Positions 2,870 to 62,382 of a stretch of 64,000 nucleotides of DNA are shown in pieces; position 1 is the stretch's first letter; the number at the start of each line of letters is the position of its first letter. The translations under genes and the position numbers were made by a program. The notes under the pieces are model-generated. The model worked only from the letters and a program-made list of their open reading frames with translations. It ran no database searches and was not told the DNA's origin. The DNA is from Vampirovibrio chlorellavorus (GTDB lineage Bacteria > Cyanobacteriota > Vampirovibrionia > Vampirovibrionales > Vampirovibrionaceae), in the NCBI GenBank assembly GCA_001858525.1, contig LAPX01000002.1, forward strand, positions 62,001 to 126,000. The letters run 5' to 3'.

Positions 2870-2909
2870 GAAATCTACCTTCCAAAAGAAGCCTGTCTGG
2901 AGAATGTTC

Positions 2910-3509
2910 ATGCACCGCTTTACCAAGCTCCGAGCAACCCGGAGGATCTCCCTTGGTTTTACCCTGGCTGAATTGCTGATCAGCTTGGCCATTTTGGGGG
3001 TAATCGCCACTTTTACCATCCCTAAAATCCTAAGCACCCAGCAAGATTCCCGAAATAAAGCCATTGCCAAAGAAGTCGCCGCCATGATTTCAGAGGCGTA
3101 TCAGCAATATTCCGCATCAAACCAAGTAACGGCCAGCACCAAGGTGGGCGATTTAACGCCTTACATGAACTACGTAAGCACTGGTAACACGGCCATGATC
3201 AATGAAAACGGAGCATTACCAGTCGGCGCGAGTGTTTCCTGCTCATTATTCGGTGGGCAGTGTCTCTTGCTCCATAATGGCGCCAGATTATTAGTGGTGC
3301 CAAACATCAGTTTTTCCGGAACGGGCGCTTTAAACGCGCTCTGGTTTCACCTGGACCCTGATGGCACAGCCGATAATACCAACGCCGTTGTTTTCTTCCT
3401 CTATTACAACGGCAGAATCAAGTCCTACAGCACCATAGACCCCAACACCGTCAGTAGTGACTCTGTTCGAAGCGCAGCGGTCGATCCCAGCTGGTTTAGC
3501 TGGAATTAA
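2910..3509 (+). CDS. Type IV pilin/pseudopilin-like protein 1
   Basis: A prepilin-like protein of 199 residues. A short basic leader ends in SLG and is followed by FTLAELLISLAILGVIATF, the hydrophobic N-terminal helix of type IV pilins and type II secretion pseudopilins. Cleavage by a prepilin peptidase is expected after the Gly at residue 16, with Glu at +5. The C-terminal part has a Cys pair (SC..QC), LHNG, DPDG and a final WFSWN. I chose the second ATG: GGAG sits 7 bases before it but only 1 base before the ATG at 2904. It is first of three tandem paralogues, each with its own sigma-28 promoter. Exact role unknown: pilus subunit, pseudopilin or adhesin. Confidence 0.9.
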   Translation: MHRFTKLRATRRISLGFTLAELLISLAILGVIATFTIPKILSTQQDSRNKAIAKEVAAMISEAYQQYSASNQVTASTKVGDLTPYMNYVSTGNTAMINENGALPVGASVSCSLFGGQCLLLHNGARLLVVPNISFSGTGALNALWFHLDPDGTADNTNAVVFFLYYNGRIKSYSTIDPNTVSSDSVRSAAVDPSWFSWN

Positions 3510-3546
3510 AGGCAAACGGTTTTTCAGAAATTTGCCGATTTTGCTC

Positions 3547-3573
3547 TAAAGTTTTTCAAGCCTTCGCCGATAC
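3547..3573 (+). promoter_or_regulatory. Sigma-28 (FliA) promoter for pilin-like gene 2
   Basis: TAAAGTTT, 11 bases, then GCCGATAC. It lies between the first and second pilin-like genes. The leader after it is nearly identical to those of the other two genes. Confidence 0.83.
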
Positions 3574-3613
3574 TTAATCTACCTTCCAAAAGAAGCCTGT
3601 CTGGAGAATGTTC

Positions 3614-4234
3614 ATGCACCGCTTTCCCAAGCTCCGAGCAACCCGAAGGATCTCCCTTGGTTTTACCCTGGCTGAATTGCTGATCAGCCTGGCCATTCTG
3701 GGGGTCATCGCCACCTTCACCATCCCTAAAATATTGATAGCCCAGCAAAACAATGCGAACAACGCCAATGCCAAACAAATGGTGGCCGCGCTTAGTAACG
3801 CCTATCAAGCCTACTTACGGGATGGTGGCAGTAAAACCACCATGCGAACCAGCGATTTAACACCTTACCTCAATTACTTAAGTATAGATAACACCGTGAC
3901 GCTGGACGCACTTCAAACACAGGGAACCTTGGGGTGCCCTTATCAATGCCTCAAATTTCACAATGGCGGTGTTCTTTTCTATTGGTTAGATGGTTTATGC
4001 CCCGGCGCCAATGCTGCGGCGCCTTTCTTCTTCGATCCAGATGGAAAAATTACTGATGGAAGCACCAATGGCCCTGGAAAAACCCTGGCACTTTATCTCT
4101 ACAGCGATGGACGGGTTAAAACCAGTGCCACGATGGATACCGGAACCAACTGGAGCGCGGGCGGAGGCGGTACTTGCAACCTCAGCAGGAATCCCGACGC
4201 CAATTTAGACCCACCCTGGCTCAATTGGAACTAG
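3614..4234 (+). CDS. Type IV pilin/pseudopilin-like protein 2
   Basis: Second of three tandem prepilin-like proteins (206 residues). The leader and first 45 residues are almost identical to gene 1, including GFTLAELLIS. The C-terminal domain diverges but keeps a Cys pair (GCPYQC), HNGG, FDPDG, a glycine-rich stretch, and a Trp-containing end (PPWLNWN). Two further cysteines (LCPG, TCNL) are shared with gene 3 but not gene 1. DPDG resembles the acidic loops that bind calcium in some pseudopilins; that function is inference. The start follows the same logic as gene 1 (GGAG 7 bases upstream). Confidence 0.9.
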   Translation: MHRFPKLRATRRISLGFTLAELLISLAILGVIATFTIPKILIAQQNNANNANAKQMVAALSNAYQAYLRDGGSKTTMRTSDLTPYLNYLSIDNTVTLDALQTQGTLGCPYQCLKFHNGGVLFYWLDGLCPGANAAAPFFFDPDGKITDGSTNGPGKTLALYLYSDGRVKTSATMDTGTNWSAGGGGTCNLSRNPDANLDPPWLNWN

Positions 4235-4271
4235 GAGCAAACGGTTTTAAGAAAATTTGCCGATTCGGCTC

Positions 4272-4298
4272 TAAAGTTTTTCAAGCCTGCGCCGATAA
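4272..4298 (+). promoter_or_regulatory. Sigma-28 (FliA) promoter for pilin-like gene 3
   Basis: TAAAGTTT, 11 bases, then GCCGATAA: an exact consensus match, 40 bases before the gene start at 4339. Confidence 0.85.
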
Positions 4299-4338
4299 AT
4301 AATATACCTTCCCCAAAAAGCCTGCCTGGAGAATGTTC

Positions 4339-4962
4339 ATGCACCGCTTTCCCAAGCCCCATCCACGCCGAAAAATCTTCAGAGGCTTTACCCTGGCCGA
4401 ATTGCTCATCAGCTTAGCCATTCTGGGCGTCATTGCCACTTTTACCATCCCCAAAATCCTCAGCACCCAGCAGAATCAAAAATTTAACGCCGTTGCCAAA
4501 GAAACCGCTGCAATGATCTCCGGAGCTTATCAGGCCTATCAACTATCAGGCGCCAGTACCACCGTTATGAGAACCCAAGACTTAACCGCATATTTTAACT
4601 ATGCCAGCATCGATACCACATCCCAAGTGGATGATGTCCCGGGTGGTACCTCATTCAATTGCAATGGCGGTTTTCCTTGCTATCGCCTGCACAATGGGGG
4701 TGTCCTTTATTATTGGACAGATAATTTTTGTAATGGAACACCCACGGCCATTGCTTACGGATTTGATCCAGACGGTGTTTACAGCGGCACCACCAATGGT
4801 ACGGGAAAGGCAGTCCGATTTTTCCTATACAACAACGGCGGGCTCCGAACAGAAGGCACACTTTTAAGCAATACAGTCTGGAATAATACGGGGACAAGCA
4901 ACTGCAACTATAACCGAAGTGCCATTCCCGCCTCCGATCCCTCATGGTTTAGCTGGAATTAA
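4339..4962 (+). CDS. Type IV pilin/pseudopilin-like protein 3
   Basis: Third tandem prepilin-like protein (207 residues). It has the leader ending RGFTLAELLIS, then LHNGGVLYYW, GFDPDG, the Cys pair FNC..FPC and the same SWFSWN end as gene 1. It is closest to gene 2 in the middle (HNGGVL.YW, FC/LC, then DPDG and a TNG.GKA.. segment). It ends 8 bases before the end of ftsY, which runs in the opposite direction. No terminator is obvious between them. Confidence 0.9.
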   Translation: MHRFPKPHPRRKIFRGFTLAELLISLAILGVIATFTIPKILSTQQNQKFNAVAKETAAMISGAYQAYQLSGASTTVMRTQDLTAYFNYASIDTTSQVDDVPGGTSFNCNGGFPCYRLHNGGVLYYWTDNFCNGTPTAIAYGFDPDGVYSGTTNGTGKAVRFFLYNNGGLRTEGTLLSNTVWNNTGTSNCNYNRSAIPASDPSWFSWN

Positions 4963-13768: not shown

Positions 13769-14608
13769 CTAGCCTCGGAGTAACTGCAAGGCCAGCTGTG
13801 GCGCCTGGTTGGCCTGGGCCAACATAGCCTGAGAAGCCTGCTGGAGAATCTGGTTTCGGGCCAGGTTGGCACTCTCCATAGCCACGTCCACGTTGCGCAC
13901 CCTCGATTCGGAGGCCGAGGTATTTTCCACGTTGGTGGCCAGGTTCTGAGCCGTGTACTCCAGTCGATTGGTAAAGGCACCCAACTGCCCTCGGGCGGTG
14001 TTGATGGTATCGATGGCGGTATCTAGCAACGAAATGGCACTTTGAGCCGCACTGTGATTATCCAGAGAGGCCACAGTAATCCCCAAGGTACTGGCGGTCA
14101 CATCCGTCAAGGCACTGGTAATGTCCAAATCATCGGCATTGCCACCCTGGTTGGCTGTAATTTGTAATGTTAGGTTGGTCGGGCTGCTGGCATCCAGCAA
14201 GTGAATGCCGTTGAACTGAGCGGCCTGAGCCATCTGGGTGATACCGGAAGCAAGGGAATCATATTCAATCTGCATGGCCGAACGCTGAGCTGTACTATAG
14301 GTATCGTTGGCTGCCTGCACGGCCAGTTCCCGCATCCGCTGTACGGCATCGGTAATAGACTGGTAAGTACCATCGGCGATGTTCAGCATGTTGATACCAT
14401 CCTGAACGTTATCCAGTGCTTTTTGAGAACCCCGGATTTGCGCCCGCAATTTCTCGGAAACCTGCAAACCAGCAGCGTCATCCCCGGCCCGGTTAATGCG
14501 GTAACCGGAAGCCAGCTTTTCCATGGTTTTACCCAGGGCGCCGGTGTTGTTGCTTAAATAACGCTGAGCGTTCAGCGATGAAACGTTGGTGTTTACAACT
14601 AAAGGCAT
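13769..14608 (-). CDS. fliC: Flagellin 1
   Basis: Filament subunit of the flagellum (279 residues). It has the D0/D1 N-terminus (MPLVVNTNVSSLNAQRYL, SGYRINRAGDDAAGL, DGINMLNIADG, RMRELAVQAANDTYS) and the matching C-terminal helix ending QAPQLALQLLRG. Only a short central part lies between, so outer domains D2/D3 are lacking. I chose the ATG at 14608 (GGAG 8 bases upstream) over a longer frame. The central segment (TSALTDVTASTLGITVASLD) is almost the same as in flagellin 6, although the ends belong to a different group. It has its own sigma-28 promoter, a GGA-loop leader hairpin and a terminator. Confidence 0.96.
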   Translation of the reverse strand: MPLVVNTNVSSLNAQRYLSNNTGALGKTMEKLASGYRINRAGDDAAGLQVSEKLRAQIRGSQKALDNVQDGINMLNIADGTYQSITDAVQRMRELAVQAANDTYSTAQRSAMQIEYDSLASGITQMAQAAQFNGIHLLDASSPTNLTLQITANQGGNADDLDITSALTDVTASTLGITVASLDNHSAAQSAISLLDTAIDTINTARGQLGAFTNRLEYTAQNLATNVENTSASESRVRNVDVAMESANLARNQILQQASQAMLAQANQAPQLALQLLRG

Positions 14609-14668
14609 CGAAGTAACTCCTCTTTTTTTATACACTCACCAAAGCCAGCTCTGAAACAGCAGGCTTCG

Positions 14669-14703
14669 CTTTGCCTCCGGCCCGATCCTTGGCCAAGGCA
14701 AAG
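14669..14703 (-). promoter_or_regulatory. Leader hairpin with GGA loop (possible CsrA site), flagellin 1
   Basis: On the minus strand CTTTGCCT pairs with AGGCAAAG and an inner GGCC with GGCC, leaving the loop AAGGATCG. It lies 60 bases before the start codon. Confidence 0.6.
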
Positions 14704-14792
14704 TTAAATGAACAACCTTATTTCGTGTGACAGTAATCAACGGAATTCAAACCGTGCTCCATTGAATAGCCCAGCTTGAGTTCTGTTTCTCC

Positions 14793-14819
14793 TATCGGAA
14801 GCCTAGTCTGAAAACTTTA
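14793..14819 (-). promoter_or_regulatory. Sigma-28 promoter of flagellin 1
   Basis: The minus strand reads TAAAGTTT, 13 bases, CCGATA. The leader would be about 180 bases. Confidence 0.82.
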
Positions 14820-15023
14820 AAGAACCTGCCAAATCTCCATTGTACGGTGGAGACAAAAGTATCCATCTGACAACTGTTTTGAGCCGCTCCCCCTTGAAGG
14901 GAAAGCCTTTTGCCCCAAATACCGGTATTCCTGCAAAAACACTATCCAGAGGAGGCCCGATCCCATTCCGTCCTCCAGTGACTGTAGACCAAACCAATGA
15001 GCTCTTACTTTTATGCTCTCCCT

Positions 15024-15054
15024 TCAAAAGCGAAGACCCGGCCGAAGCCGGGTC
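15024..15054 (-). terminator. Terminator of flagellin gene 2
   Basis: GACCCGGC pairs with GCCGGGTC around a TTCG tetraloop on the minus strand, followed by TTCGCTTTT. Confidence 0.85.
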
Positions 15055-15093
15055 CTCTGAGCGTTATGAACAGACCTATCCCAGTCTGCCTGG

Positions 15094-15924
15094 CTATCCT
15101 CGCAGTAACTGCAAGGCCAGCTGTGGCGCCTGGTTGGCCTGAGCCAACATGGCCTGAGAGGCCTGCTGGAGGATCTGGTTTCGGGCCAGATTGGAACTCT
15201 CCATAGCCACGTCCACGTTTCGCACCCTCGATTCGGAAGCAGACGTGTTTTCCACGTTGGTGGCCAGGTTCTGAGCCGTGTACTCCAGTCGGTTGGTAAA
15301 GGCACCCAAGCGACCTCGGGCCGCGTTAATGGCATCCAGTGCGGAATCCAGCGTAGAAATGGCAGATTGCGCACTGGCGTGAGACAGCATTGAGCCAGTC
15401 AGCACCACACTGGTAATATCGATCAATGAACTGACGATATCCAGTTCATCAGCCGTGCCCCCTTGATTGGCTGTAATCTGCAATTCCAAAGTCGCAGGGG
15501 TGGAGGCATCCAGCAGGTGAATCCCGTTAAACTGAGCGGCCTGAGCCATCTGGCTAATACCAGATGACAAAGAATCATACTCAATTTGCATGGCGGATCG
15601 CTGGGCAGAACTGTAGGTATCGTTGGCTGCTTGCACGGCCAATTCCCGCATCCGCTGTACGGCATCGGTAATGGACTGGTAAGCACCATCGGCGATGTTC
15701 AGCATGTTGATACCATCCTGAACGTTATCCAGTGCTTTTTGAGAACCCCGGATTTGCGCCCGCAATTTCTCGGAGACCTGCAAACCAGCCGCGTCATCCC
15801 CGGCCCGGTTAATACGATACCCGGAAGCCAGCTTTTCCATGGTTTTACCAAGACCAGTGGTATTATTCGTTAAGTAACGCTGGGCATTCAGCGATGAAAC
15901 GTTGGTGTTTACAACTAAAGGCAT
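15094..15924 (-). CDS. fliC: Flagellin 2
   Basis: Flagellin of 276 residues with the same ends as flagellins 1, 3 and 4 (start MPLVVNTNVSS, end QAPQLALQLLRG). The central part differs: GGTADELDIVSSLIDITSVVLTGSM, then LSHASAQSAI and INAARGRLGAF. It shares the SMLSHASAQ.AI..LD.ALDAIN signature with flagellin 7, whose ends are of the other group. GGAG lies 8 bases before the ATG. It is a separate transcription unit with its own promoter, leader hairpin and terminator. Confidence 0.96.
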   Translation of the reverse strand: MPLVVNTNVSSLNAQRYLTNNTTGLGKTMEKLASGYRINRAGDDAAGLQVSEKLRAQIRGSQKALDNVQDGINMLNIADGAYQSITDAVQRMRELAVQAANDTYSSAQRSAMQIEYDSLSSGISQMAQAAQFNGIHLLDASTPATLELQITANQGGTADELDIVSSLIDITSVVLTGSMLSHASAQSAISTLDSALDAINAARGRLGAFTNRLEYTAQNLATNVENTSASESRVRNVDVAMESSNLARNQILQQASQAMLAQANQAPQLALQLLRG

Positions 15925-15985
15925 CGAAGTGACTCCTCTTCATTTTAATTGACGTCACATGCCGAATAGAAGCAAGCAACGCGCT

Positions 15986-16011
15986 CCCCCCAAATCATCC
16001 TGTTTGAGAGA
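15986..16011 (-). promoter_or_regulatory. Leader hairpin with GGA loop (possible CsrA site), flagellin 2
   Basis: CAAA pairs with TTTG, extended by several G-U and C-G pairs (CTCT with GGGG), with the loop CAGGATGA. It is weaker than the other leader hairpins. Confidence 0.45.
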
Positions 16012-16109
16012 GAAGCAACTGTGATTTGTCTCGTGTGACTTGGGAATGGTTAGTGACCCACGTCAATAGTCATCTCCTATTCAAGATGGATATTCACGCT
16101 TGTTTGTCC

Positions 16110-16136
16110 TATCGGCGAAGTACACCAAATACTTTA
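16110..16136 (-). promoter_or_regulatory. Sigma-28 promoter of flagellin 2
   Basis: The minus strand reads TAAAGTAT, 13 bases, CCGATA (preceded by G). Confidence 0.8.
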
Positions 16137-16321
16137 AACAAACCGGAAATTCTCCCACGTTTGGAGGAGAGAGGGGTGATTAATAATTGTGTTCATGAGC
16201 CAAAAACGCCTTTACCCAAAAGCTTTCCAGTCAATCAAACCATTAAAACACCCCACTCCTTTTACCAGAGGAGAGACGATTGATTTCTTCTGATAAAAAT
16301 TTCCCCTGCTGGTTCGCGCAT

Positions 16322-16350
16322 AAAAAAAGACCTGGCCGAAGCCAGGTCTT
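16322..16350 (-). terminator. Terminator of flagellin gene 3
   Basis: AGACCTGGC pairs with GCCAGGTCT around a TTCG loop on the minus strand, followed by TTTTTT. Confidence 0.93.
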
Positions 16351-16431
16351 CCAGTCGAGGAGTGAGTGTTCGCCAGAAGCCGTTCCAGCGGAATCCTCGG
16401 TCCTTTAGTGAATTGAATAAATGGTAACCAA

Positions 16432-17274
16432 TTATCCTCGCAGCAACTGCAAGGCCAGCTGTGGTGCCTGGTTGGCCTGGGCCAACATAGCCTGAGAAGC
16501 CTGCTGGAGTATCTGGTTTCGGGCCAGGTTGGAACTCTCCGCGGCCACGTCCACGTTTCGCACCCTCGATTCGGAAGCCGAGGTGTTTTCCACGTTGGTG
16601 GCCAGGTTTTGTGCAGTGTACTCTAACCGGTTGGTATAAGCGCCCAATTGGCCTCGCGCCGCGTTCAAGTCATCGATTGCTGTATCCAGGAGAGCAATGG
16701 CACTTTGAGCCGCACTATGACCACTCAGCAATCCAGCGCCAATGGTACTGGCAATACCAGTCACATCGATCAAGGCACTGGCCACATCCAGATCATCGGC
16801 GTTGCCACCCTGGTTGGCCGTAATTTGTAAATTGATACCGCTGGTGGCATCGGTACCGTTCAACAAATTGAGGCCGTTGAACTGAGTCGCCTCTGCCATC
16901 TGGGTGATACCAGAAGCCAGAGAGTTGTACTCAATTTGCATCGCGGATCGCTGAGCGCTGCTGTAAGTATCGTTGGCTGCCTGCACGGCCAGTTCCCGCA
17001 TCCGTTGCACGGCATCGGTAATGGACTGGTAAGCACCATCGGCAATGTTCAGCATGTTGATGCCATCCTGAACGTTATCCAGCGCTTTTTGAGAACCCCG
17101 GATTTGCGCCCGCAATTTCTCGGAGACCTGCAAACCGGCGGCGTCATCACCGGCCCGGTTAATACGGTAACCGGAAGCCAGCTTTTCCATGGTTTTACCC
17201 AGGGCACCGGTGTTATTGGTCAAATACCGCTGAGCATTAATGGATGAAACGTTGGTATTAACAACTAAAGGCAT
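16432..17274 (-). CDS. fliC: Flagellin 3
   Basis: Flagellin of 280 residues with the same type of ends as flagellins 1, 2 and 4. The central segment is of another type: LLNGTDATSGINLQITANQGG, then ASALIDVTGIASTIGAGLLSG. It closely matches flagellin 5, which belongs to the other end group. The ATG at 17274 is preceded by GGAG with 5 bases between; an upstream GTG at 17280 is less likely. Own promoter, leader hairpin and terminator. Confidence 0.96.
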   Translation of the reverse strand: MPLVVNTNVSSINAQRYLTNNTGALGKTMEKLASGYRINRAGDDAAGLQVSEKLRAQIRGSQKALDNVQDGINMLNIADGAYQSITDAVQRMRELAVQAANDTYSSAQRSAMQIEYNSLASGITQMAEATQFNGLNLLNGTDATSGINLQITANQGGNADDLDVASALIDVTGIASTIGAGLLSGHSAAQSAIALLDTAIDDLNAARGQLGAYTNRLEYTAQNLATNVENTSASESRVRNVDVAAESSNLARNQILQQASQAMLAQANQAPQLALQLLRG

Positions 17275-17350
17275 AAGCACTCCTTTGATTGGTCAAACAA
17301 GCAAAAACCACCGTGACACACCCCCATTTGGCTGCATAACACGTTGCGCC

Positions 17351-17373
17351 CCAGAATAAATCCATTATTCCGA
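17351..17373 (-). promoter_or_regulatory. Leader hairpin with GGA loop (possible CsrA site), flagellin 3
   Basis: GAATAA pairs with TTATTC around the 5-base loop TGGAT, with further wobble pairs outside. The sequence GGCGTTCG just 5' of the stem is shared with flagellin 4. Confidence 0.65.
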
Positions 17374-17478
17374 ACGCCGGGTTTTTGATAGTGTCATTCG
17401 TGTGATTCATACATTGAGCATTGCTAACCTTGATACCGAACAGGTGCTCATGGAACCTGAGACTGTATCTGTATCTCC

Positions 17479-17505
17479 TATCGGCAATCTACATTAAAAC
17501 CTTGA
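17479..17505 (-). promoter_or_regulatory. Sigma-28 promoter of flagellin 3 (weak -35)
   Basis: The minus strand reads TCAAGGTT, 12 bases, GCCGATAG. The -10 box is perfect and the -35 is degenerate. Confidence 0.65.
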
Positions 17506-17701
17506 ATCTTTTTTCAAAAACTCCTCTGAACGGTGGACCCCTAAAATTCACTATTCCACGCCAAAAAAGTTTAGAAGCCTGCAGCATCAGTATTTCCCAT
17601 TTTTTTCAATGTTAAACCGCCAATAAAATTTTCCAGCGAACAGGGGATGACTCACAGAGGCATCTCCGTCCCCTCACCTAGACTGACTAAAGGAGCTTAA
17701 A

Positions 17702-17736
17702 CGCCTCAAGACCCAGCATCTTGCTGGGCCTTGAGA
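17702..17736 (-). terminator. Terminator of flagellin gene 4
   Basis: CTCAAG-G-CCCAGCA pairs with TGCTGGG-T-CTTGAG on the minus strand. The following T tract is short (GGCGTTTAAG). Confidence 0.75.
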
Positions 17737-17803
17737 GGGAGTTAATCATCGTGGAATTGGGAAGCCGTTCCCGTTTCCACGACGGTTTCCTTGAGTGAGA
17801 GAC

Positions 17804-18640
17804 CTATCCGCGCAGCAGCTGAAGGGCCAACTGCGGGGCCTGATTGGCTTGAGCCAACATGGCCTGGGAAGCTTGCTGGAGAATCTGATTTCGGGCCAGG
17901 TTGGAACTCTCCATGGCCACATCCACGTTGCGCACCCTCGATTCGGAGGCCGAGGTGTTCTCGATATTGGTGGCCAAATTCTGAGCCGCGTATTCCAAGC
18001 GATTAACAAAGGCTCCCAATTTTCCACGGGCCTCATTGACCGTATCCAGAGCGGCATCCATCACGGCAATGGCACTTTGAGCCGTCAAGTGACTACTCAA
18101 GTCACCGGCTACGGTCAGGGTAGCAGAAGTCATGTCATTGAGGGCGCTGGTAATATCCAGTTGATCGGCATTGCTGCCCTGATTGGCTGTAATTTGCAAA
18201 TTCAAACTGGTGGGGCTGCTGGCATCCAGCAAATGAATACCGTTGAACTGGGCCGCCTGAGCCATCTGGCTAATCCCAGAAGCCAAGGAGTTGTACTCAA
18301 TCTGCAAAGCTGATCGCTGAGCCGTGCTGTAGGTATCGTTGGCCGCCTGCACGGCCAGTTCCCGCATGCGTTGCAGAGAGTCGGTGATGGCCTGATAGGT
18401 ACCGTCGGCAATGTTCAGCATGTTCAAGCCATCCTGAACGTTATCCAGCGCTTTTTGAGAACCCCGAATTTGCGCCCGTAATTTTTCGGACACCTGCAAC
18501 CCGGCGGCGTCATCTCCGGCCCGGTTAATGCGATAACCGGAGGCCAGTTTCTCCATGGTCTTGCCCAGGGAACCGGTGTTGTTACTTAAATACCGCTGAG
18601 CGTTCAGCGATGAGACGTTGGTATTAATCACTAAAGGCAT
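17804..18640 (-). CDS. fliC: Flagellin 4
   Basis: Flagellin of 278 residues (start MPLVINTNVSSLNAQRYLSNN, end QAPQLALQLLRG). The central segment is unlike the other three types: GSNADQLDITSALNDMTSATLTVAGDLSSHLTAQ. It also has VNEARGKLGAFVNRLEYAAQN where the others have TARGQLGAFTNRLEYTAQN. GGAG is 12 bases from the ATG, longer than in its neighbours, which may lower translation. It is the last gene of the first end group. Confidence 0.96.
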   Translation of the reverse strand: MPLVINTNVSSLNAQRYLSNNTGSLGKTMEKLASGYRINRAGDDAAGLQVSEKLRAQIRGSQKALDNVQDGLNMLNIADGTYQAITDSLQRMRELAVQAANDTYSTAQRSALQIEYNSLASGISQMAQAAQFNGIHLLDASSPTSLNLQITANQGSNADQLDITSALNDMTSATLTVAGDLSSHLTAQSAIAVMDAALDTVNEARGKLGAFVNRLEYAAQNLATNIENTSASESRVRNVDVAMESSNLARNQILQQASQAMLAQANQAPQLALQLLRG

Positions 18641-18715
18641 GGGTTCAATTAACTCCTCTTATATCATCAGAAATCGACGCAATGGAAGAGACCCTTCCAG
18701 ACTGCGCTGCGTCCT

Positions 18716-18732
18716 GAGCAAATCCGTTGCCC
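18716..18732 (-). promoter_or_regulatory. Leader hairpin with GGA loop (possible CsrA site), flagellin 4
   Basis: GGGCAA pairs with TTGCTC (one G-U) around the loop CGGAT. It is preceded by GGCGTTCG, as in flagellin 3. Confidence 0.6.
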
Positions 18733-18826
18733 GAACGCCAATTTCTCGGCTTGATGTTTTCCTATCAATAGCTAGATGATAGACCCAGTGTCTCACTCAA
18801 ACACTGTAGTATCGTCTACAAATCTG

Positions 18827-18854
18827 CTTTCGACAGACTAGACCAAAAACTTTA
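18827..18854 (-). promoter_or_regulatory. Sigma-28 promoter of flagellin 4 (weak -10)
   Basis: The minus strand reads TAAAGTTT, 12 bases, GTCGAAAG. The -35 is perfect and the -10 is degenerate. Confidence 0.55.
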
Positions 18855-19057
18855 AAACCCTCTCCAAAACTCCTCCACCCAGCGGAGTGAGCTACTCCTG
18901 CATTCGGAGGAACAAGCACCTAAAACCCTTTAGCCATCAGGGTTTCAAAAAACAGTGCAAACAACCCTACCGCAACACATGAAGGACCCGCATAACACGG
19001 GGAGTCCTACAAACGCTTTAGACCATGAAACGCACCCGAACATGCCAACCAATAAAG

Positions 19058-19131
19058 CCGATACACAAAGGCCCTTGGCAACGCCAGGTAATTAAGCTGA
19101 TACACAAAGGCCCCTGGCAATGCCAGGAGCC
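19058..19131 (-). terminator. Duplicated terminator after flagellin gene 5
   Basis: Two copies of a 31-base unit (19058-19088 and 19097-19127) differ at a few places. The copy nearer the gene forms GGCTCCTGG with CCAGGGGCC, then TTTGTGTA on the minus strand. The second copy is a decayed duplicate. Confidence 0.65.
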
Positions 19132-19172
19132 TCTGATCCCAGATGAAACGACCACGGTGTCCGCTTAAAGAC

Positions 19173-20012
19173 TTACCTTAACAAACTCAAGGCGATCTGC
19201 GGACTTTGATTGGCCTGGGCCAACATTGCTGAGGCCGCCTGCTGAAGTATTTGATTTCGGGCCAGGTTGGAACTCTCTGCAGCCACATCCACATTTCGTA
19301 CCCTCGATTCAGAGGCCGAGGTGTTCTCAATGTTGGTGGCCAGGTTTTGGGCTGTGTATTCCAATCGGTTGGTAAACGCCCCCAACTGACCTCGGGCTGC
19401 ATTAATGTCATCCAGTGCCGTATCCAGCAGGCCAATGGCACTTTGGGCCGCACTATGACCATTCAGCAAACCAGCGGAGATAGTACTGGCAATGCCAGTC
19501 ACATCAATCAAAGCGCTGGATACATCCAAATCATCGGCATTGCCCCCTTGATTGGCTGTAATTTGTAAATTGATACCACTGGCCGCATCGGTGCCATCCA
19601 GCAAATTAATGCCGTTAAACTGGGCAGCCTCTGCCATCTGGGTAATACCCGACACCAGTGAGTCATATTCTGTTTGCATGGCCGATCGCTGAGCACTGCT
19701 GTAGGTATCGTTGGATGCCTGCACGGCCAGTTCCCGCATCCGCTGCACGGCATCGGTAATGCTCTGCAAAGCCCCATCGGCGATGTTCAGCATGTTCACA
19801 CCATCCTGAACGTTATCCAGTGCTTTTTGAGAACCCCGAATTTGCGCACGCAATTTCTCGGAGACCTGCAAACCAGCCGCGTCATCCCCGGCCCGGTTAA
19901 TGCGATACCCGGAAGCCAGCTTTTCCATGGTTTTGCTAAGCCCGTTGGTATTATTCGTCAAGTAACGCTGGGCATTCATTGCCGCCACGTTCGTGTTCAC
20001 AATTAATGGCAT
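19173..20012 (-). CDS. fliC: Flagellin 5
   Basis: Flagellin of 279 residues from the second end group (start MPLIVNTNVAAMNAQRYL, end NQSPQIALSLLR without the last Gly). Its central segment (GTDAASGINLQITANQGG, ALIDVTGIASTISAGLLNG) nearly repeats that of flagellin 3. GGAG lies 9 bases before the ATG. I find no sigma-28 promoter in the 186 bases upstream, so it may be read from the promoter of flagellin 7. It does have a GGA-loop hairpin before it and a terminator after it. Confidence 0.96.
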   Translation of the reverse strand: MPLIVNTNVAAMNAQRYLTNNTNGLSKTMEKLASGYRINRAGDDAAGLQVSEKLRAQIRGSQKALDNVQDGVNMLNIADGALQSITDAVQRMRELAVQASNDTYSSAQRSAMQTEYDSLVSGITQMAEAAQFNGINLLDGTDAASGINLQITANQGGNADDLDVSSALIDVTGIASTISAGLLNGHSAAQSAIGLLDTALDDINAARGQLGAFTNRLEYTAQNLATNIENTSASESRVRNVDVAAESSNLARNQILQQAASAMLAQANQSPQIALSLLR

Positions 20013-20061
20013 ATAGTGATTCTCCTATTCCGTTTGATTGAATAAAGCTCGGTTCCGGTGA

Positions 20062-20084
20062 GGCAAGGCATCCATTGCCTTGCC
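20062..20084 (-). promoter_or_regulatory. Leader hairpin with GGA loop (possible CsrA site), flagellin 5
   Basis: GGCAAGGC pairs perfectly with GCCTTGCC around the 7-base loop AATGGAT. It is the strongest of the set and lacks a T tract, so it is not a simple terminator. Confidence 0.65.
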
Positions 20085-20198
20085 CTGACCACCAGGTCAC
20101 TGACCTTGAGCGTACCCACCTATCAGGCACACCCAAGACCAGATGCTTTTACTCAAAACTACCTACTTATCGACTTACTGTTTAACTGACTTCTCGCG

Positions 20199-21035
20199 CT
20201 ACCTTAACAGGCTAAGGGCAATCTGTGGGCTTTGATTGGCCTGGGCTAACATTGCTGAGGCCGCCTGCTGAAGGATTTGGTTTCGGGCCAGATTGGAACT
20301 CTCTGCAGCCACATCCACATTTCGTACCCTCGATTCAGAGGCCGAGGTGTTCTCAATGTTGGTGGCCAGGTTTTGGGCCGTGTATTCCAGTCGGTTGGTA
20401 AACGCCCCCAACTGACCTCGAGCCGTGTTGATGGTATCAATGGCGGTATCCAGCAAGGAAATGGCACTTTGCGCCGCACTATGTGAATCCAGTGAGGCCA
20501 CTGTGATTCCCAAAGTACTGGCCGTCACATCTGTCAAGGCACTGGTCAAATCCAAATCATCAGCATTACCACCTTGATTGGCCGTAATCTGGATATTGAT
20601 ATTGGCAGGACTACTGGCATCCAATAGGTGAATGCCGTTAAACTGAGCAGCCTGAGCAATCTGGGTGATGCCAGAAGCCAGTGAATCAAATTCCGTCTGC
20701 ATGGCCGATCGCTGAGCGGTACTATAAGTATCGTTGGCTGCTTGCACGGCCAATTCCCGCATCCGCTGCACGGCATCGGTGATGGATTGCATGGCCCCAT
20801 CAGCAATGTTCAGCATGTTCACGCCATCCTGAACGTTATCTAATGCCTTTTGAGAACCTTTGATCTGCGCTCGCAATTTTTCGGAGACCTGCAAACCCGC
20901 GGCGTCATCTCCGGCCCGGTTAATACGATACCCCGAAGCCAGTTTTTCCATGGTCCGGCCAAGACCATTGGTGTTATTGGTTAAGTAACGCTGGGCATTC
21001 ATTGCCGCCACGTTCGTGTTCACAATTAATGGCAT
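20199..21035 (-). CDS. fliC: Flagellin 6
   Basis: Flagellin of 278 residues from the second end group (MPLIVNTNVAAMNAQRYL, NQSPQIALSLLR). The central segment, LTSALTDVTASTLGITVASLD with ISLLDTAIDTINTARGQ, is almost identical to flagellin 1 of the first group. The gene starts 53 bases after flagellin 7 with no promoter or terminator between, so the two form one transcript. Its start region has two GGA motifs close together (AAGGATAGGAG), one of them the ribosome binding site. Confidence 0.96.
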   Translation of the reverse strand: MPLIVNTNVAAMNAQRYLTNNTNGLGRTMEKLASGYRINRAGDDAAGLQVSEKLRAQIKGSQKALDNVQDGVNMLNIADGAMQSITDAVQRMRELAVQAANDTYSTAQRSAMQTEFDSLASGITQIAQAAQFNGIHLLDASSPANINIQITANQGGNADDLDLTSALTDVTASTLGITVASLDSHSAAQSAISLLDTAIDTINTARGQLGAFTNRLEYTAQNLATNIENTSASESRVRNVDVAAESSNLARNQILQQAASAMLAQANQSPQIALSLLR

Positions 21036-21088
21036 ATAGTGATTCTCCTATCCTTGGGTTGTGTGAGGTTGATGGGTAAAACTATTGG

Positions 21089-21916
21089 TTAACGCAGTAA
21101 ACTGAGGGCAATTTGAGGACTCTGATTGGCTTGGGCCAACATGGCCGAAGCCGCCTGCTGCAGGATCTGGTTTCGGGCCAGGTTGGAACTTTCTCGGGCC
21201 ACATCCACGTTTCGCAACCTGGATTCCGAAGCAGAGGTGTTCTCAAAGTTGGTGGCCAGATTTTGGCCAATGTAGTCCAGCCGGTTGGTGAATGCCCCCA
21301 ATCGACTTCGGGTTGAGTTAATGGCGTCTAGTGCCGTATCCAGCGTCTGGATGGCTGTTTGGGCACTGGCATGAGACAACATGGAGGCCGTAAAGGTAAT
21401 GCTGGTAATATCCATCAGACCGCTGATCACATCAAAATCGTCTGACGTTCCGCCTTGGTTGGCCGTAATCTGCAAATTCAAATTGGCGGGCGCCGAGGCA
21501 TCGAGTAAATGAATGCCGTTAAACTGGGCAGCCTGAGCCATTTGTGTAATGCCGGAAGACAAGGAATCATATTCGGTTTGCATGGCCGAGCGTTGCGCAC
21601 TACTGTAGGTGTCGTTGGAGGCCTGCACGGCCAATTCCCGCATCCGCTGTACGGCATCGGTGATGGATTGCATAGCCCCATCTGCGATGTTCAGCATGTT
21701 GATGCCATCCTGAACGTTATCCAGCGCCTTTTGAGAACCTCGAATCTGAGCCCGCATTTTTTCAGACATTTGCAAACCAGCGGCATCATCTCCGGATCGG
21801 TTGATGCGATACCCGGAAGACAATTTTTCCATGGTTTTACTGAGGTTATTGGTATTGCTGGTTAAATAACGCTGGGCATTCATGGCCCCCACGTTCGTAT
21901 TCACAATCAAAGGCAT
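21089..21916 (-). CDS. fliC: Flagellin 7
   Basis: Flagellin of 275 residues, second end group (MPLIVNTNVGAMNAQRYLTSN, NQSPQIALSLLR). It is the most divergent of that group in D1: RINRSGDDAAGLQMSEKMRAQ and RLDYIGQNLATNFENTSASESRLRNVDVARES. The central segment (GGTSDDFDVISGLMDITSITFTASM, LSHASAQTAI) is related to flagellin 2. I chose the ATG at 21916 (GGAG 7 bases upstream); the frame is open to 22003. It is first gene of the 7-6-(5) transcript, with a sigma-28 promoter upstream. Confidence 0.96.
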   Translation of the reverse strand: MPLIVNTNVGAMNAQRYLTSNTNNLSKTMEKLSSGYRINRSGDDAAGLQMSEKMRAQIRGSQKALDNVQDGINMLNIADGAMQSITDAVQRMRELAVQASNDTYSSAQRSAMQTEYDSLSSGITQMAQAAQFNGIHLLDASAPANLNLQITANQGGTSDDFDVISGLMDITSITFTASMLSHASAQTAIQTLDTALDAINSTRSRLGAFTNRLDYIGQNLATNFENTSASESRLRNVDVARESSNLARNQILQQAASAMLAQANQSPQIALSLLR

Positions 21917-21971
21917 TAATTTTCTCCTGTCCGTGCGCGATTGCAGCCCATTCCAATCCCCGTACAGCAAA

Positions 21972-21986
21972 AGCAAATCCATTGCC
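21972..21986 (-). promoter_or_regulatory. Leader hairpin with GGA loop (possible CsrA site), flagellin 7
   Basis: GGCAA pairs with TTGCT (one G-U) around the loop TGGAT, 56 bases before the ATG. The stem is short. Confidence 0.5.
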
Positions 21987-22127
21987 GTTGCCTGCCCAAG
22001 CATCCGGGCGACCGAGGCGGAAAGTTATCCTCATTTCGTGTGTGGTGAATAAATTACTACGTGCTTGAAGTGTGATCCGACAGACATAAATCTCCATCCA
22101 ATGGTGGAAATATATGCTTGTGCCTCC

Positions 22128-22154
22128 TATCGGTAGAGGAGATCTAAAACTTTA
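22128..22154 (-). promoter_or_regulatory. Sigma-28 promoter of the flagellin 7-6-(5) unit
   Basis: The minus strand reads TAAAGTTT, 13 bases, CCGATA. Confidence 0.83.
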
Positions 22155-22467
22155 GGGTTTAAAAAAATCCATCGGCATCCAATCCCCTGAAACCCTGTCC
22201 CTGCCTGATAAAAAAGACATTAATATATATTAACAAAATAAAAAGAAGATACCCAGCACCCCTCAATAATGATCGGGGAAGCACTCTTCAACCCAAACCG
22301 CAGTAACGCTCCAAACGGGTTCCGGCGCAACTTAAAGTCACTATCCCGCCATGGCCAATAGTGGCAAAAGACTGGCTGGGTGGCCGGATCGATCACGGTT
22401 CCCTAAAAACACTCAAAACTCAAAAACACTCGGTGATGAAAGCGGTGATGTCTCAGGCTCATTCTCG
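22155..22467. other. Intergenic region, nothing recognised
   Basis: AT-rich at 22200-22250. There is no convincing ORF, promoter or terminator. The 3' end of the 22468 gene has no clear terminator here. Confidence 0.5.
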
Positions 22468-23961
22468 TTAAATTCTCCATTGTCCATACCCATACGGATT
22501 GGTGGACAGCCGCGCACCTTGAAAGGGAGCCTGCACCTTGGGCGCGGCAATGGCAGCAGCTGAGGCTGGATCTTCCAGCGGTTTCCCCTGAGCGGCAAAT
22601 CCGCCATAAGACTGAAACACGGTTCGCCCCTGCGCTGGTTGGACCGGTTGCAAGGCCACCATTTTTTTCTGTTTTTCCACTTCTTGCTTTTGATGCCGCT
22701 TGTTGGTCTGGCGATAGGCAACCAAATTGATACCCACCCCGCAAACCGCAGCCCCTAAAGCCAAAGAACTCCAATAAAGCCCTTTACTTTGTGCCATCTT
22801 GATTTTGTCTGCAACCTTTTGAGTAATGGCACCAGAAGTGACGAGCTTTTCAACCTCGCTTTTAAACTGACTGGCCTCCTTTCCCAAATCAAGCTTCAAA
22901 ATGGTTTCAGGCGTAGTGCCTTTATTCCACATGGCGCCCCATAATGATTGTCCTTTGGGGACATCCAGCAGCGTTAAATTCAAGTCCTTAAGGCTTTGAA
23001 ACTTGCCCTGGGCGTCTTTAAAAAATGCCAGTTTTTCCAACCCTTTGGCCAAAAAGTTTCCGGCCAAAGCTTGCCCAAAAAGCAAATAAGGAATAACAAC
23101 CGATAAACGAGTGGCCTGCTCTTTAAATTCTAGTTTGTCGCGGGAGGCATCGAGATAACTGGCCAGACCCACGAGTGTTAGCAAGCCCTGAAACCCTTTG
23201 TGAGTATCGAATTGAGATTTACCGGAACTACCAAAATTCAGGTATCTCAGCAGCTTGGGAATACGCTGGGATTCCTCTTTTACAAAACGCTTGAAAACCC
23301 ATGGCATAGCCAAAGCAGTACCCATAGTCCCCAACCATAAGGCGCCCACTTGCTTTTGGCGCTTAGTGGCCTTGGCCACCGGGTCCGATTCCCCTTGGGC
23401 AATATGAACTCTGGAATGCTCTAAACCCGCCACACCGGTAAAATTAGTGGTATGAAATTTTTTAGCCGTAATGACATTTTTCCAGTGCTGGATCATATAC
23501 TCAAAGGCAAAGGCACTGCCCAAGGCACCTAAAATGGCCCCGGATTTTGCAGCAAGCAGCTTGGTAGGCACTGTTTTAGAGAAATCCTTAACGCCATATT
23601 GCGCCCAGCTTTGACCAATTTGCTTATAATCCAGACCACCTTGCATCTTGGCGATTAAAGCACCAACCGCAGTACCCACGACTGGCACCGTGAAATAAAA
23701 AGCCCCATCTTCCACAAATTCAAGAAATGTATCTTCAAAAAATTGAATTTTGTTCACACGCTGGGCAGTCGGATCGTCTTTACCCAACTGTGCATTACGC
23801 AACAAGCTAACCGGTGCCTTTGGCAACCAGACACCTGCCGTATCTTGAGCAAACTGCTTCACAGCTTCGGGAGTAATCACGCTGGAAACCACGTTAACCA
23901 CACCACCAAATTTTGGCTCCTGACTACTTTGAATGAATTTTTGCGGTGTTGGTTGGGACAT
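22468..23961 (-). CDS. Membrane protein of unknown function within the flagellin locus
   Basis: Not recognised (497 residues). The N-terminal 90 residues are polar. Several hydrophobic or Gly/Ala-rich helices follow: FYFTVPVVGTAVGALIAKM, SGAILGALGSAFAFEYMI, LWLGTMGTALAMPWVF, LSVVIPYLLFGQALAGNFLA, LYWSSLALGAAVCGVGINLVA. The end is a polar tail rich in Gln, Pro and Ala finishing NPYGYGQWRI. It has no signal peptide. It has neither a sigma-28 promoter nor homology to flagellins that I can see, yet sits between flagellins 7 and 8 on the same strand. The style (polar Pro/Ser start, weak transmembrane helices) resembles the proteins at 60013 and 63051. Confidence 0.75.
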   Translation of the reverse strand: MSQPTPQKFIQSSQEPKFGGVVNVVSSVITPEAVKQFAQDTAGVWLPKAPVSLLRNAQLGKDDPTAQRVNKIQFFEDTFLEFVEDGAFYFTVPVVGTAVGALIAKMQGGLDYKQIGQSWAQYGVKDFSKTVPTKLLAAKSGAILGALGSAFAFEYMIQHWKNVITAKKFHTTNFTGVAGLEHSRVHIAQGESDPVAKATKRQKQVGALWLGTMGTALAMPWVFKRFVKEESQRIPKLLRYLNFGSSGKSQFDTHKGFQGLLTLVGLASYLDASRDKLEFKEQATRLSVVIPYLLFGQALAGNFLAKGLEKLAFFKDAQGKFQSLKDLNLTLLDVPKGQSLWGAMWNKGTTPETILKLDLGKEASQFKSEVEKLVTSGAITQKVADKIKMAQSKGLYWSSLALGAAVCGVGINLVAYRQTNKRHQKQEVEKQKKMVALQPVQPAQGRTVFQSYGGFAAQGKPLEDPASAAAIAAPKVQAPFQGARLSTNPYGYGQWRI

Positions 23962-24007
23962 TTTAAACCCTCTGGGTCAATGGATGCTTTTATAAAACCG
24001 GTGAAAG

Positions 24008-24048
24008 TAAAAAACCGCCGACCTGTTTAGGAGGGAGGTCGGCGGTTT
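24008..24048 (-). terminator. Strong terminator after the 29-codon ORF
   Basis: AAACCGCCGACCT pairs perfectly with AGGTCGGCGGTTT (13 bp), then TTTTTAC on the minus strand. It lies between the small ORF at 24074 and the gene starting at 23961. Confidence 0.92.
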
Positions 24049-24073
24049 GGCTGTATCTGGTTAAAACTGGGGT

Positions 24074-24163
24074 TTAGATTTCTTCACAGCGCATTGGCCC
24101 ACACTCCCGAAGGATAATGGGACACATAATCATCACAATGGCAAAAATAGTGAAGAATTCCAT
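24074..24163 (-). CDS. Possible 29-residue membrane peptide
   Basis: An ATG-started frame of 29 codons that begins with a hydrophobic helix (MEFFTIFAIVMIMCPIIL) and ends with a charged, Cys-containing tail (RECGPMRCEEI). A GGA lies 7 bases before the ATG. A TTGACA box is present upstream near 24250 (on the minus strand), with a less convincing TACTCT 16 bases later. A very strong terminator follows the stop by 26 bases. The arrangement of promoter, small ORF and terminator is what a small membrane protein gene would show; the coding call itself is inference. Confidence 0.45.
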   Translation of the reverse strand: MEFFTIFAIVMIMCPIILRECGPMRCEEI

Positions 24164-24299
24164 GATGCTTTCCAAAAGAGACTTTCCTAAAGATATACTC
24201 AGAATGAGTAAACTTTTTAACTTCCCAATAGAGTACTGTTTCAAGAAAATCTGTCAATCCCAAAAGTTGCACGCATACAGCCATAAAGTTACAACCATG

Positions 24300-24329
24300 A
24301 AAAAAAGGGGCCCGGATGAACCGAGCCCC
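24300..24329 (-). terminator. Terminator of flagellin gene 8
   Basis: GGGGCTCGG pairs with CCGGGCCCC (one G-U) around TTCAT, followed by TTTTTT on the minus strand. Confidence 0.92.
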
Positions 24330-24385
24330 ATATCGTTTGTTGGAAAAACGAAACCGGTGTGAATCGTTTCGCCAACCACCCGGGC

Positions 24386-25243
24386 TTACTGTTGCAACAA
24401 TCGCAACGCCAGCTGGGGTGTTTGGTTAGCCTGTGACAACATCGCCTGCGAGGCCTGCTGAAGTATCTGGTTTCGAGAAAGGTTAGAGCTTTCCATCGCC
24501 ACATCCACGTTTCGAATCCGTGACTCTGAGGCACTCAAGTTCTCAATCCCTATGGAGAGGTTATTGGCGGCTCCTTCCAGACGGTTGACCACCGCACCCA
24601 GCACACCGCGCTTGGTATTCACCGAATCAATGGCGGCATCCACCTGAGTCAGCAGGTTACGGGCTGCTAAACCGTTGACCAGACTTGAGGTCAACGCTAG
24701 CCCATCCCAGCCAGTGATCCCCAGCGTGGAGGCCTTGGAGTCGCCCAAGGCACTGGCGATATCGATCTGATCGGTGGTGGCGTTATTGGGGCCTACTTGC
24801 AGCGTAAACTGGGTAGGGCTGGCACTGGACAACAGATAAACCCCGTTGAACTGGCTGGCAAACGAGATACGGTCAATGTCGGTCAGCAATTGAACAATCT
24901 CTACCTGCATGGCCGAACGCTGAGCGGTGTTGTAGGTATCGTTGGACCCCTGTACTGCCAGCTCGCGAATCCGCTGTAAGCTGTCGGTAATGGTTTGCAG
25001 AGAGCCATCCGCGATGTTTAATACGTTGATCCCATCCTGGGTGTTATCGAAGGCTTTTTGAGAACCCCGGATTTGGGCCCGCAACTTCTCGGATAACTGC
25101 AAACCGGCCGCATCGTCCCCGGCCCGGTTAATGCGGTACCCGGAGGACAGCTTTTCCATCGTTTTACCCAGCATGCTGGTGTTCATACCCAAACTGCGCT
25201 GAGCGTTTAATGAGGAAACGTTGGTGTTAATGACTAGAGGCAT
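24386..25243 (-). CDS. fliC: Flagellin 8 (divergent)
   Basis: Flagellin of 285 residues, clearly set apart from the other seven. It keeps MPLVINTNVSSLNAQRSL, SSGYRINRAGDDAAGLQLSEK, RELAVQGSNDTYN and ends NQTPQLALRLLQQ. The centre is its own: ASPTQFTLQVGPNNATTDQID and GITGWDGLALTSSLVNGLAARN, and it lacks the ITANQGG motif of the others. GGAG lies 7 bases before the ATG at 25243. It has a sigma-28-like promoter, a leader hairpin and a terminator. It could be a minor or cell-proximal filament subunit (inference). Confidence 0.96.
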   Translation of the reverse strand: MPLVINTNVSSLNAQRSLGMNTSMLGKTMEKLSSGYRINRAGDDAAGLQLSEKLRAQIRGSQKAFDNTQDGINVLNIADGSLQTITDSLQRIRELAVQGSNDTYNTAQRSAMQVEIVQLLTDIDRISFASQFNGVYLLSSASPTQFTLQVGPNNATTDQIDIASALGDSKASTLGITGWDGLALTSSLVNGLAARNLLTQVDAAIDSVNTKRGVLGAVVNRLEGAANNLSIGIENLSASESRIRNVDVAMESSNLSRNQILQQASQAMLSQANQTPQLALRLLQQ

Positions 25244-25285
25244 TCGAAATCTCCTTTTTCCTAAATCCCTCAAACAGGTTACGGA

Positions 25286-25303
25286 CCTGGAATCCCTTCC
25301 AGG
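25286..25303 (-). promoter_or_regulatory. Leader hairpin with GGA loop (possible CsrA site), flagellin 8
   Basis: CCTGGA pairs with TCCAGG, leaving AGGGAT in the loop. It lies 42 bases before the ATG. Confidence 0.6.
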
Positions 25304-25454
25304 CACCGCACACTAACCCGGTGATGACAGCGAGCCATCCAAGGTCAGATGAGGGGGCGTTTGTGCGTAACTAAGTTTTTCCAACAAGACACCGTTGAAA
25401 GCATTGCTGAATTCATTGGTGTCACCAACACGTTCTGTTGGCTTACATAAGGCT

Positions 25455-25481
25455 TATCGGGTCAGAGTCGCTCAAACTGAA
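25455..25481 (-). promoter_or_regulatory. Sigma-28-like promoter of flagellin 8
   Basis: The minus strand reads TTCAGTTT (6 of 8 matches), 13 bases, CCGATAAG. Confidence 0.6.
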
Positions 25482-61518: not shown

Positions 61519-62382
61519 CTAACGCGCCGAATCGCTAAACAGAAATCGCTTTTCAAACAGCGGCGTTTTGTACAGACTGTCGACGGTGACTGTTTGCACC
61601 GTGCCGGGGGGATTCAGTTCGTCCCAATTCACGTCCGGTTTTCGTTTTAACACCAACCGCACCAAAAAGCGGGGACGCAAGGGCTTGACCGCATACTCCT
61701 GACGCATGCGCTCGATCAGGGCAGGCACATCCTCAGAATTTTCCCGAGCGGCAAACAGATTCAGCACCACCCACTTGGTACAGTTAAAACTCAAGGGCGA
61801 TTCCAAGGGGGCTACCAGATTGTAATGGTGATTGACCGGCAGCAAGGATTGAAAGGGGTTGGCCTGCAAACGCTGTAACAAACGCTCCTGCAAGTCCATG
61901 GGGGGTAACAGCAGCAAGGCCTCCTTGCGATCGTTGATTTGCCCGTAGAAGAAATCCTTGATATTCTGCCGCCACAACAGTGCCGTCTTACGGTTATTGG
62001 CCGGATCCGAATACAAACTGTACGTGATCCACTCGCCGGTCACAGGCTCCTGAAATACAAAGCCCGAATGGGTCATACCCGTGGGATCAAAAAGGCGGGT
62101 AAATACCGATCCTTGCCGAGCCAGCACCCCCACCTTGGCGTTCTGCCGCTGAAGGGTCTCCACCACCCAATTGCTGAGGGTTTCGGCCAAAGCCAACTTT
62201 TTGCTGTTACTCCAAACATAGGGTTTCACAGGCAAACTGGCATAAGAGGACGTGAGGACAGAATCGCTGACCGCAGGCGAATGAGGTTCAGCCCAGGCCG
62301 GTGTCATCATCAGTGCCAGTGTCAAAAAAAACAGACTAACGAACCGCATGCCTTTTTGAGTGGAATGATCTAAATGCTTCAT
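61519..62382 (-). CDS. Secreted DUF2145-like protein
   Basis: An exported protein of 287 residues with signal peptide MKHLDHSTQKGMRFVSLFFLTLALMMTPAWA. The mature part has VGVLARQGSVFTRLFDPTGMTHSGFVFQEP, then DFFYGQINDRKEALLLLPPMDLQERLL, YNLVAPLESPLSFNCTKWVVLNLFAAR and a basic end. The order His (THSGF) then Cys (NCTKW) is that of the DUF2145 family, which resembles circularly permuted papain-fold proteins. The function is unknown. The assignment to DUF2145 is by memory of pattern and needs checking. Confidence 0.65.
   Translation of the reverse strand: MKHLDHSTQKGMRFVSLFFLTLALMMTPAWAEPHSPAVSDSVLTSSYASLPVKPYVWSNSKKLALAETLSNWVVETLQRQNAKVGVLARQGSVFTRLFDPTGMTHSGFVFQEPVTGEWITYSLYSDPANNRKTALLWRQNIKDFFYGQINDRKEALLLLPPMDLQERLLQRLQANPFQSLLPVNHHYNLVAPLESPLSFNCTKWVVLNLFAARENSEDVPALIERMRQEYAVKPLRPRFLVRLVLKRKPDVNWDELNPPGTVQTVTVDSLYKTPLFEKRFLFSDSAR

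Follow-up and report, generated by a model that had tools for sequence, protein, structure and literature searches.

The 64,000-nucleotide stretch of Vampirovibrio chlorellavorus DNA analysed here (positions 62,001 to 126,000 of contig LAPX01000002.1; hereafter the window, whose own numbering is used throughout) carries eight tandem flagellin genes (fl1 to fl8) on its minus strand at 13772-25243, and the mRNA leaders of seven of them, all except fl6, contain a hairpin that exposes GGA in its apical loop. Because seven of the eight leaders show such a GGA-loop hairpin and csrA adjoins fliW in the same genome, flagellin production in this organism is very probably limited by the switch known from Bacillus. 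We propose, with a probability of roughly 0.87, that the leader hairpins would be high-affinity CsrA sites, with CsrA repressing flagellin translation, FliW relieving the repression and flagellin sequestering FliW. An original prediction, made from the letters of the window, had put forward a CsrA-FliW-like flagellin switch in this lineage, and the csrA and fliW genes, the shuffled leaders and the orthologues described below support it, binding and repression being predicted steps. At the level of sequence, all testable features of the flagellin-FliW-CsrA module were found.

The hairpin of fl1 (14669-14703; this and all following leader features lie on the minus strand) presents the loop AAGGAUCG with its GGA at 14686-14688, or -80 relative to the start codon, and its stability of -20.7 kcal/mol was matched by 0/60 dinucleotide shuffles. 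Likewise matched by none of 60 shuffles were the hairpins of fl3 (17346-17377, loop UGGAU or AUGGAU, GGA 17361-17363 at -89, -13.5 kcal/mol), fl4 (18709-18738, loop CGGAU or ACGGAU, GGA 18723-18725 at -85, -15.3 kcal/mol), fl5 (20060-20085, loop AUGGA(U), GGA 20071-20073 at -61, -20.8 kcal/mol) and fl8 (25281-25309, loop (A)GGGA(U), GGA 25293-25295 at -52, -19.4 kcal/mol). That of fl7 (21964-21995, loop UGGAU or AUGGAU, GGA 21978-21980 at -64, -12.0 kcal/mol) was matched by 2/60, giving a range of 0-2/60 for six of the seven leaders, and the hairpin of fl2 (15983-16016, loop CAGGAUGA, GGA 15998-16000 at -76, -12.2 kcal/mol) is weaker and is missed by the loop limit of the shuffle test. These positions, -52 to -89, bear out the expectation that every flagellin gene except the sixth is preceded by a hairpin whose loop exposes GGA. 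When 60 nucleotides of coding sequence were folded in, five of the hairpins (fl1, fl3, fl4, fl5 and fl8) remained dominant with a probability of unpaired GGA of 0.95-1.0 (0.98-1.0 for fl1). By contrast, the 54-nucleotide 5' spacer of fl6 (21036-21089) has no hairpin, and a linear AAGGAU (AAGGAUAGGAG) directly adjoins the start site. An Rfam scan of the region and its leaders matched no family above its cut-off.

Written as six nucleotides, the loops of fl1, fl2, fl3, fl4, fl5, fl7 and fl8 read AAGGAU, CAGGAU, AUGGAU, ACGGAU, AUGGAU, AUGGAU and AGGGAU, and in several of them the first A may also pair with the loop-closing U. The hexaloop of RsmE structures is ANGGAN, and the consensus obtained by systematic evolution of ligands by exponential enrichment is RUACARGGAUGU (reviewed in PMC7652899). 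The predicted match of the loops to the CsrA motif ANGGA thus holds for six of the seven and fails for CAGGAU of fl2, and a U directly follows the GGA in all seven. The stems had been described as completely different in sequence, which overstates the case, since an outer GCGTTCGG arm is common to fl3 and fl4 and a GGCAA arm to fl5 and fl7; pairwise blastn among the window's leaders nevertheless aligned no two of them at E <= 1e-3. As anticipated, the start sites supply a second GGA: a Shine-Dalgarno GGA lies at -9 to -16 in all seven hairpin-bearing leaders, often in a context other than ANGGA, at a distance of 41-80 nucleotides from the loop GGA. In fl1 this candidate second CsrA contact occupies 14618-14620 (-12). 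In the flagellin genes of two other genomes (L092 and L106 of G005 and G008), a perfect CAACAAA-AGGAG-TTTGTTG hairpin carries the Shine-Dalgarno AGGAG in its loop, an arrangement whose sequence fits a second CsrA site.

The exposure of GGA is neither a chance property of these leaders nor a general one of the genome. To rank GGA against the other triplets, each triplet was scored by the best local hairpin exposing it. In 71 flagellin leaders taken from the order, GGA came out on top of all 64 triplets in the loops (z -10.9, a value that is not a probability because related leaders are not independent). A GGA hairpin below -8 kcal/mol was found in 41 of these 71 leaders, against a count of 11.2 for dinucleotide-shuffled leaders, which reached at most 19 in 60 shuffles, so shuffled leaders do not yield GGA-loop hairpins as often as the real ones. 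For FlgL and other non-flagellin relatives, 7 of 41 upstream regions had such a hairpin versus 6.5 expected, with no excess. The two strands of the window together contain 14 ANGGA hairpins of -12 kcal/mol or stronger, and 6 of them fall in the leaders, which make up about 1% of the sequence. As a wider background of about 480 kb, for which the window was supplemented with 400 kb from contig C23 and 16 kb from contig C26, we took 304 genes with at least 60 nucleotides of non-coding leader, gene starts being set by a simple rule. The seven strongest ANGGA hairpins among the 304 leaders all belonged to flagellin genes, and an ANGGA hairpin of -12 kcal/mol or stronger preceded 7/8 flagellins versus 0/296 other genes (Fisher p 1.8e-13). 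Relative to other GGAs of the same leaders, ANGGA and GGAU flanks were enriched (p 0.003 and 0.002). CsrA control of hag is established in Bacillota, and 63 flagellin leaders, nearly all from Bacillota and retrieved by a contig scan with a flagellin query, served as a positive control; 39 of them had a GGA hairpin below -8 kcal/mol versus 5.9 expected, with GGA tied with GCC for the top rank owing to other G+C-rich hairpins in those leaders.

The hairpins are also retained in relatives. Every hairpin-bearing leader has an orthologue in the sister species G004, and the GGA is kept in 7/7. For the stems, hairpins of the window were mutated in a neutral simulation with as many changes as separate the real orthologues and with substitution types in their observed proportions; this replaced a count of compensatory pairs from which the rows of fl2 and fl5 had been left out. 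The real G004 hairpins were much more stable than the neutrally mutated ones (combined Fisher p 3.8e-5), with single-leader p values of 0.0125-0.055 for six leaders and 0.31 for fl7, and the comparison with relatives suggested in the original prediction therefore came out in its favour. The fl2 hairpin is stronger in the sister species (-16.4 kcal/mol), and in two sister species one C-G pair of the fl8 stem has become U-A, a compensatory change. Among the families, f1 gives a strong signal, with 26/42 leaders ranking in the top 5% relative to their own shuffles, and the signal is present in f2 (5/15); in family f5, which has flagellins and csrA without fliW, 2/10 leaders do so, which is not significant.

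The two regulatory genes that the switch calls for, both absent from the window, were found next to each other elsewhere in the genome, as a search for them had been meant to establish. The csrA match lies at C26:172284-172439 (E 2.9e-23) and the fliW match directly upstream at C26:171835-172197 (E 1.8e-40), on another contig than the flagellin cluster and not beside flagellar genes; downstream in the same operon follow genes for a TPR protein and a glycosyltransferase, both identified by their sequences rather than by a family search. The final codons of fliW contain the csrA Shine-Dalgarno sequence AAGGAG, and the csrA start is five bases past the fliW stop, so that csrA translation is probably coupled to that of fliW, as in the translationally coupled fliW-csrA pair of B. 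subtilis (PMC6529632). The 86-residue CsrA keeps the RNA-binding residues L4 and R44, as well as R6, and the MLVLTR... and YREEI segments are conserved. Its alignment to the CsrA of the FliW-CsrA complex 5dmb runs to residue 71, and the C-terminal extension beyond the core would be the part that FliW contacts; FliW aligns with its counterpart in the same complex at E 3e-21. The fliW-csrA tandem is present in 17/18 genomes of the order, among them that of the window, and the exception, 78% complete, has neither gene, as is true of most other genomes of the class. Searching the organism's own genome with the CsrB covariance model gave no match at E <= 1, and thus no CsrB-type RNA was found. As a separate observation, two CsrA domains share a single open reading frame in G048 (L025), G043, G046 and G050, genomes in which fliW is absent, with flagellin absent too from G046 and G050; in L025 the REEI motif is missing from the first CsrA domain, and the second domain is mostly intact.

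Promoter-like sequences of the sigma-28 type stand before fl1, fl2, fl3, fl4, fl7 and fl8, 211-238 nucleotides 5' of the ATG. With their fixed spacing (TAAAGTTT...CCGATAG), they match the consensus at 14792-14819 (fl1), 16109-16136 (fl2), 17478-17505 (fl3), 18827-18854 (fl4), 22127-22154 (fl7) and 25454-25481 (fl8). Because of this position, the six promoter-bearing mRNAs should have leaders of about 180-205 nucleotides, with start sites inferred. The gap between fl7 and fl6 is 54 nucleotides and that between fl6 and fl5 is 186 nucleotides, and fl6, perhaps with fl5 too, may be co-transcribed from the fl7 promoter. FlgM is present in the genome.

How the parts might work together can be sketched by analogy with B. 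subtilis and C. jejuni (PMC7652899, PMC6529632, PMC4894983), from which binding, repression, FliW antagonism and flagellin feedback are inferred. Transcription from sigma-28 promoters would produce most of these flagellin mRNAs with their leaders of about 180-205 nucleotides, and a CsrA dimer would dock on the ANGGA hairpin loop 52-89 nucleotides before the start codon. Either alone or, perhaps via its second subunit, by bridging the 41-80 nucleotides to the Shine-Dalgarno GGA, the docked CsrA would exclude ribosomes. FliW, the product of the gene that precedes csrA in the operon, would inactivate CsrA, and flagellin held in the cytoplasm would tie up FliW. As the filament grows and flagellin is exported, FliW would be set free and turn CsrA off, and all hairpin-bearing flagellins would be translated together; fl6, without a hairpin, may follow fl7 within one transcript.

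Several observations weigh against this mechanism. The stems here are long, while selected CsrA ligands mostly have no more than four contiguous pairs (PMC7652899), and intersite distances of 41-80 nucleotides are long for one CsrA dimer. With 60 nucleotides of coding sequence included, the hairpins of fl2 and fl7 compete with other structures and are minority folds (probability of unpaired GGA 0.27-0.87 and 0.26-0.87, respectively). Strict two-sided compensation is seen in only a few pairs, and family f3 is weak, with 1/11 leaders in the best 5% of shuffles despite having fliW-csrA.

Long and stable stems on abundant flagellin mRNAs could also be generic 5' stabilisers or ribosome stand-by structures in which the loop GGA is incidental, and Bacillota leaders do hold other stable hairpins rich in GCC/GGC. 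We consider this very unlikely, given that none of the 64 triplets ranks above GGA in the loops, that its ANGGA and GGAU flanks are enriched, that it is kept in all seven orthologues, and that such hairpins occur in none of the 296 other leaders. The G+C-rich character and length of several hairpins, together with the tandem arrangement of the genes, might instead suggest transcription terminators or attenuators, a suggestion that is hardly credible because no U run follows the stems and the hairpins lie downstream of sigma-28 promoters, within leaders, in mostly long intergenic regions.

Other explanations keep the GGA loop as the point of recognition. Sequence by itself names no binder, and a second conserved box in the leaders (see below) shows that another input may exist, so a different RNA-binding protein or a small RNA could read the GGAU loops; against this, the CsrA/RsmE consensus is ANGGA presented in a hairpin loop (PMC7652899), and csrA and fliW co-occur across the order, which leaves such a reader highly improbable. 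Less improbable, though still unlikely as the chief function, is that the co-expressed leaders act as CsrA sponges that titrate CsrA from other flagellar mRNAs. The C. jejuni flaA leader partly acts so (PMC4894983), and this genome offers several strong sites without a CsrB-type RNA; on the other hand, about 480 kb contained no other strong ANGGA-hairpin targets, and the GGA at the start site suits direct repression. Titration of this kind would be compatible with CsrA repression of flagellin translation through the leader hairpins, which we continue to favour.

The second element of the leaders is a (T)CACACGA box, located at 14723-14730 (TCACACGA, fl1), at 16031-16038 (fl2) and 17398-17405 (fl3) in the same form, and as CACACGA at 22036-22042 (fl7). 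CACACGA is the most enriched 7-mer in the flagellin leaders of the genus (9/27 leaders versus 0.09 expected), and with its T included the box likewise leads among 8-mers. The window has four copies, all in flagellin leaders, at -113 to -132 and 37-62 nucleotides upstream of the hairpin, and both strands of 400 kb of C23 have 11 occurrences, the word being nearly absent outside leaders. The box is also found in leaders of G001 and G004, and its pairing with other leader parts, judged by eye, was not consistent. It is tempting, if rather doubtful, to view the leaders as a two-input regulatory RNA, in which the CsrA hairpin is joined by a genus-specific (T)CACACGA box with its own reader and graded hairpin strengths release the paralogous flagellins in order as FliW inactivates CsrA, thereby setting filament composition.

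The eight genes occupy 13772-14608 (fl1), 15094-15924 (fl2), 16432-17274 (fl3), 17804-18640 (fl4), 19173-20012 (fl5), 20199-21035 (fl6), 21089-21916 (fl7) and 24386-25243 (fl8), the second coordinate being in each case the first base of the ATG; fl2 matches Flagellin_N and Flagellin_C, and the other seven open reading frames match Flagellin_N. At least one further flagellin lies outside the cluster, at C23:504898, likewise with a GGA-loop hairpin before it (-39). Between fl8 and fl7, the minus strand encodes a 497-residue protein without any Pfam match (22468-23961). Elsewhere in the window, strong sigma-28-type promoters on the plus strand (2843-2869 and 4272-4298) stand directly 5' of two of three tandem genes (2904-3509, 3608-4234 and 4333-4962) whose products carry an N-methylation motif like that of type IV pilins, and judging from these promoters the pilin-like proteins of 2904-4962 are possibly co-regulated with flagella.

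The arrangement resembles the Hag-FliW-CsrA system of B. subtilis in its fliW-csrA tandem with a csrA start site overlapping the fliW end, its leader GGA site combined with a Shine-Dalgarno GGA and its sigma-28-type promoter. Whereas B. subtilis has one flagellin, hag, here eight tandem flagellins with diverged stems and at least one more elsewhere are found, and fliW-csrA, with TPR and glycosyltransferase genes behind it, lies on a different contig. With the CsrA-FliW-flaA system of C. jejuni it shares GGA in leader stem-loops, the FliW antagonist, the lack of a CsrB-type RNA and the sigma-28-type promoter (C. jejuni flaA being sigma-28-dependent), but flaA has two stem-loops per leader and a measured dissociation constant of about 50 nM (PMC4894983), as opposed to one strong hairpin per leader known here from its sequence. 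Spirochaete flaB (Treponema denticola and Borrelia burgdorferi) offers another case of several flagellins with CsrA sites near the Shine-Dalgarno sequence, which is where the spirochaete sites have been described, in contrast to the distal loop hairpins of the present leaders; in T. denticola, fliW-csrA lies within a flagellar cluster (PMC9481697). CsrB and RsmZ RNAs similarly carry GGA in hairpin loops, yet they are non-coding CsrA sponges, without a CsrB match in this genome.

No report of a flagellin-FliW-CsrA module in this lineage was found in the open-licence literature. The switch itself is already known, and what is new is the lineage and the many-flagellin arrangement. The CsrA-FliW flagellin checkpoint, for which there are measurements in Bacillota and Campylobacterota and a proposal in spirochaetes, would thus extend to an undescribed lineage, where it would apply to a whole flagellin gene family whose leaders no longer align with one another and have kept the GGA loop. 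Ranking GGA against all triplets in leader loops also provides an annotation-free test usable on any flagellated lineage. Taken together, these results support an ancient role for CsrA in flagellin homeostasis.

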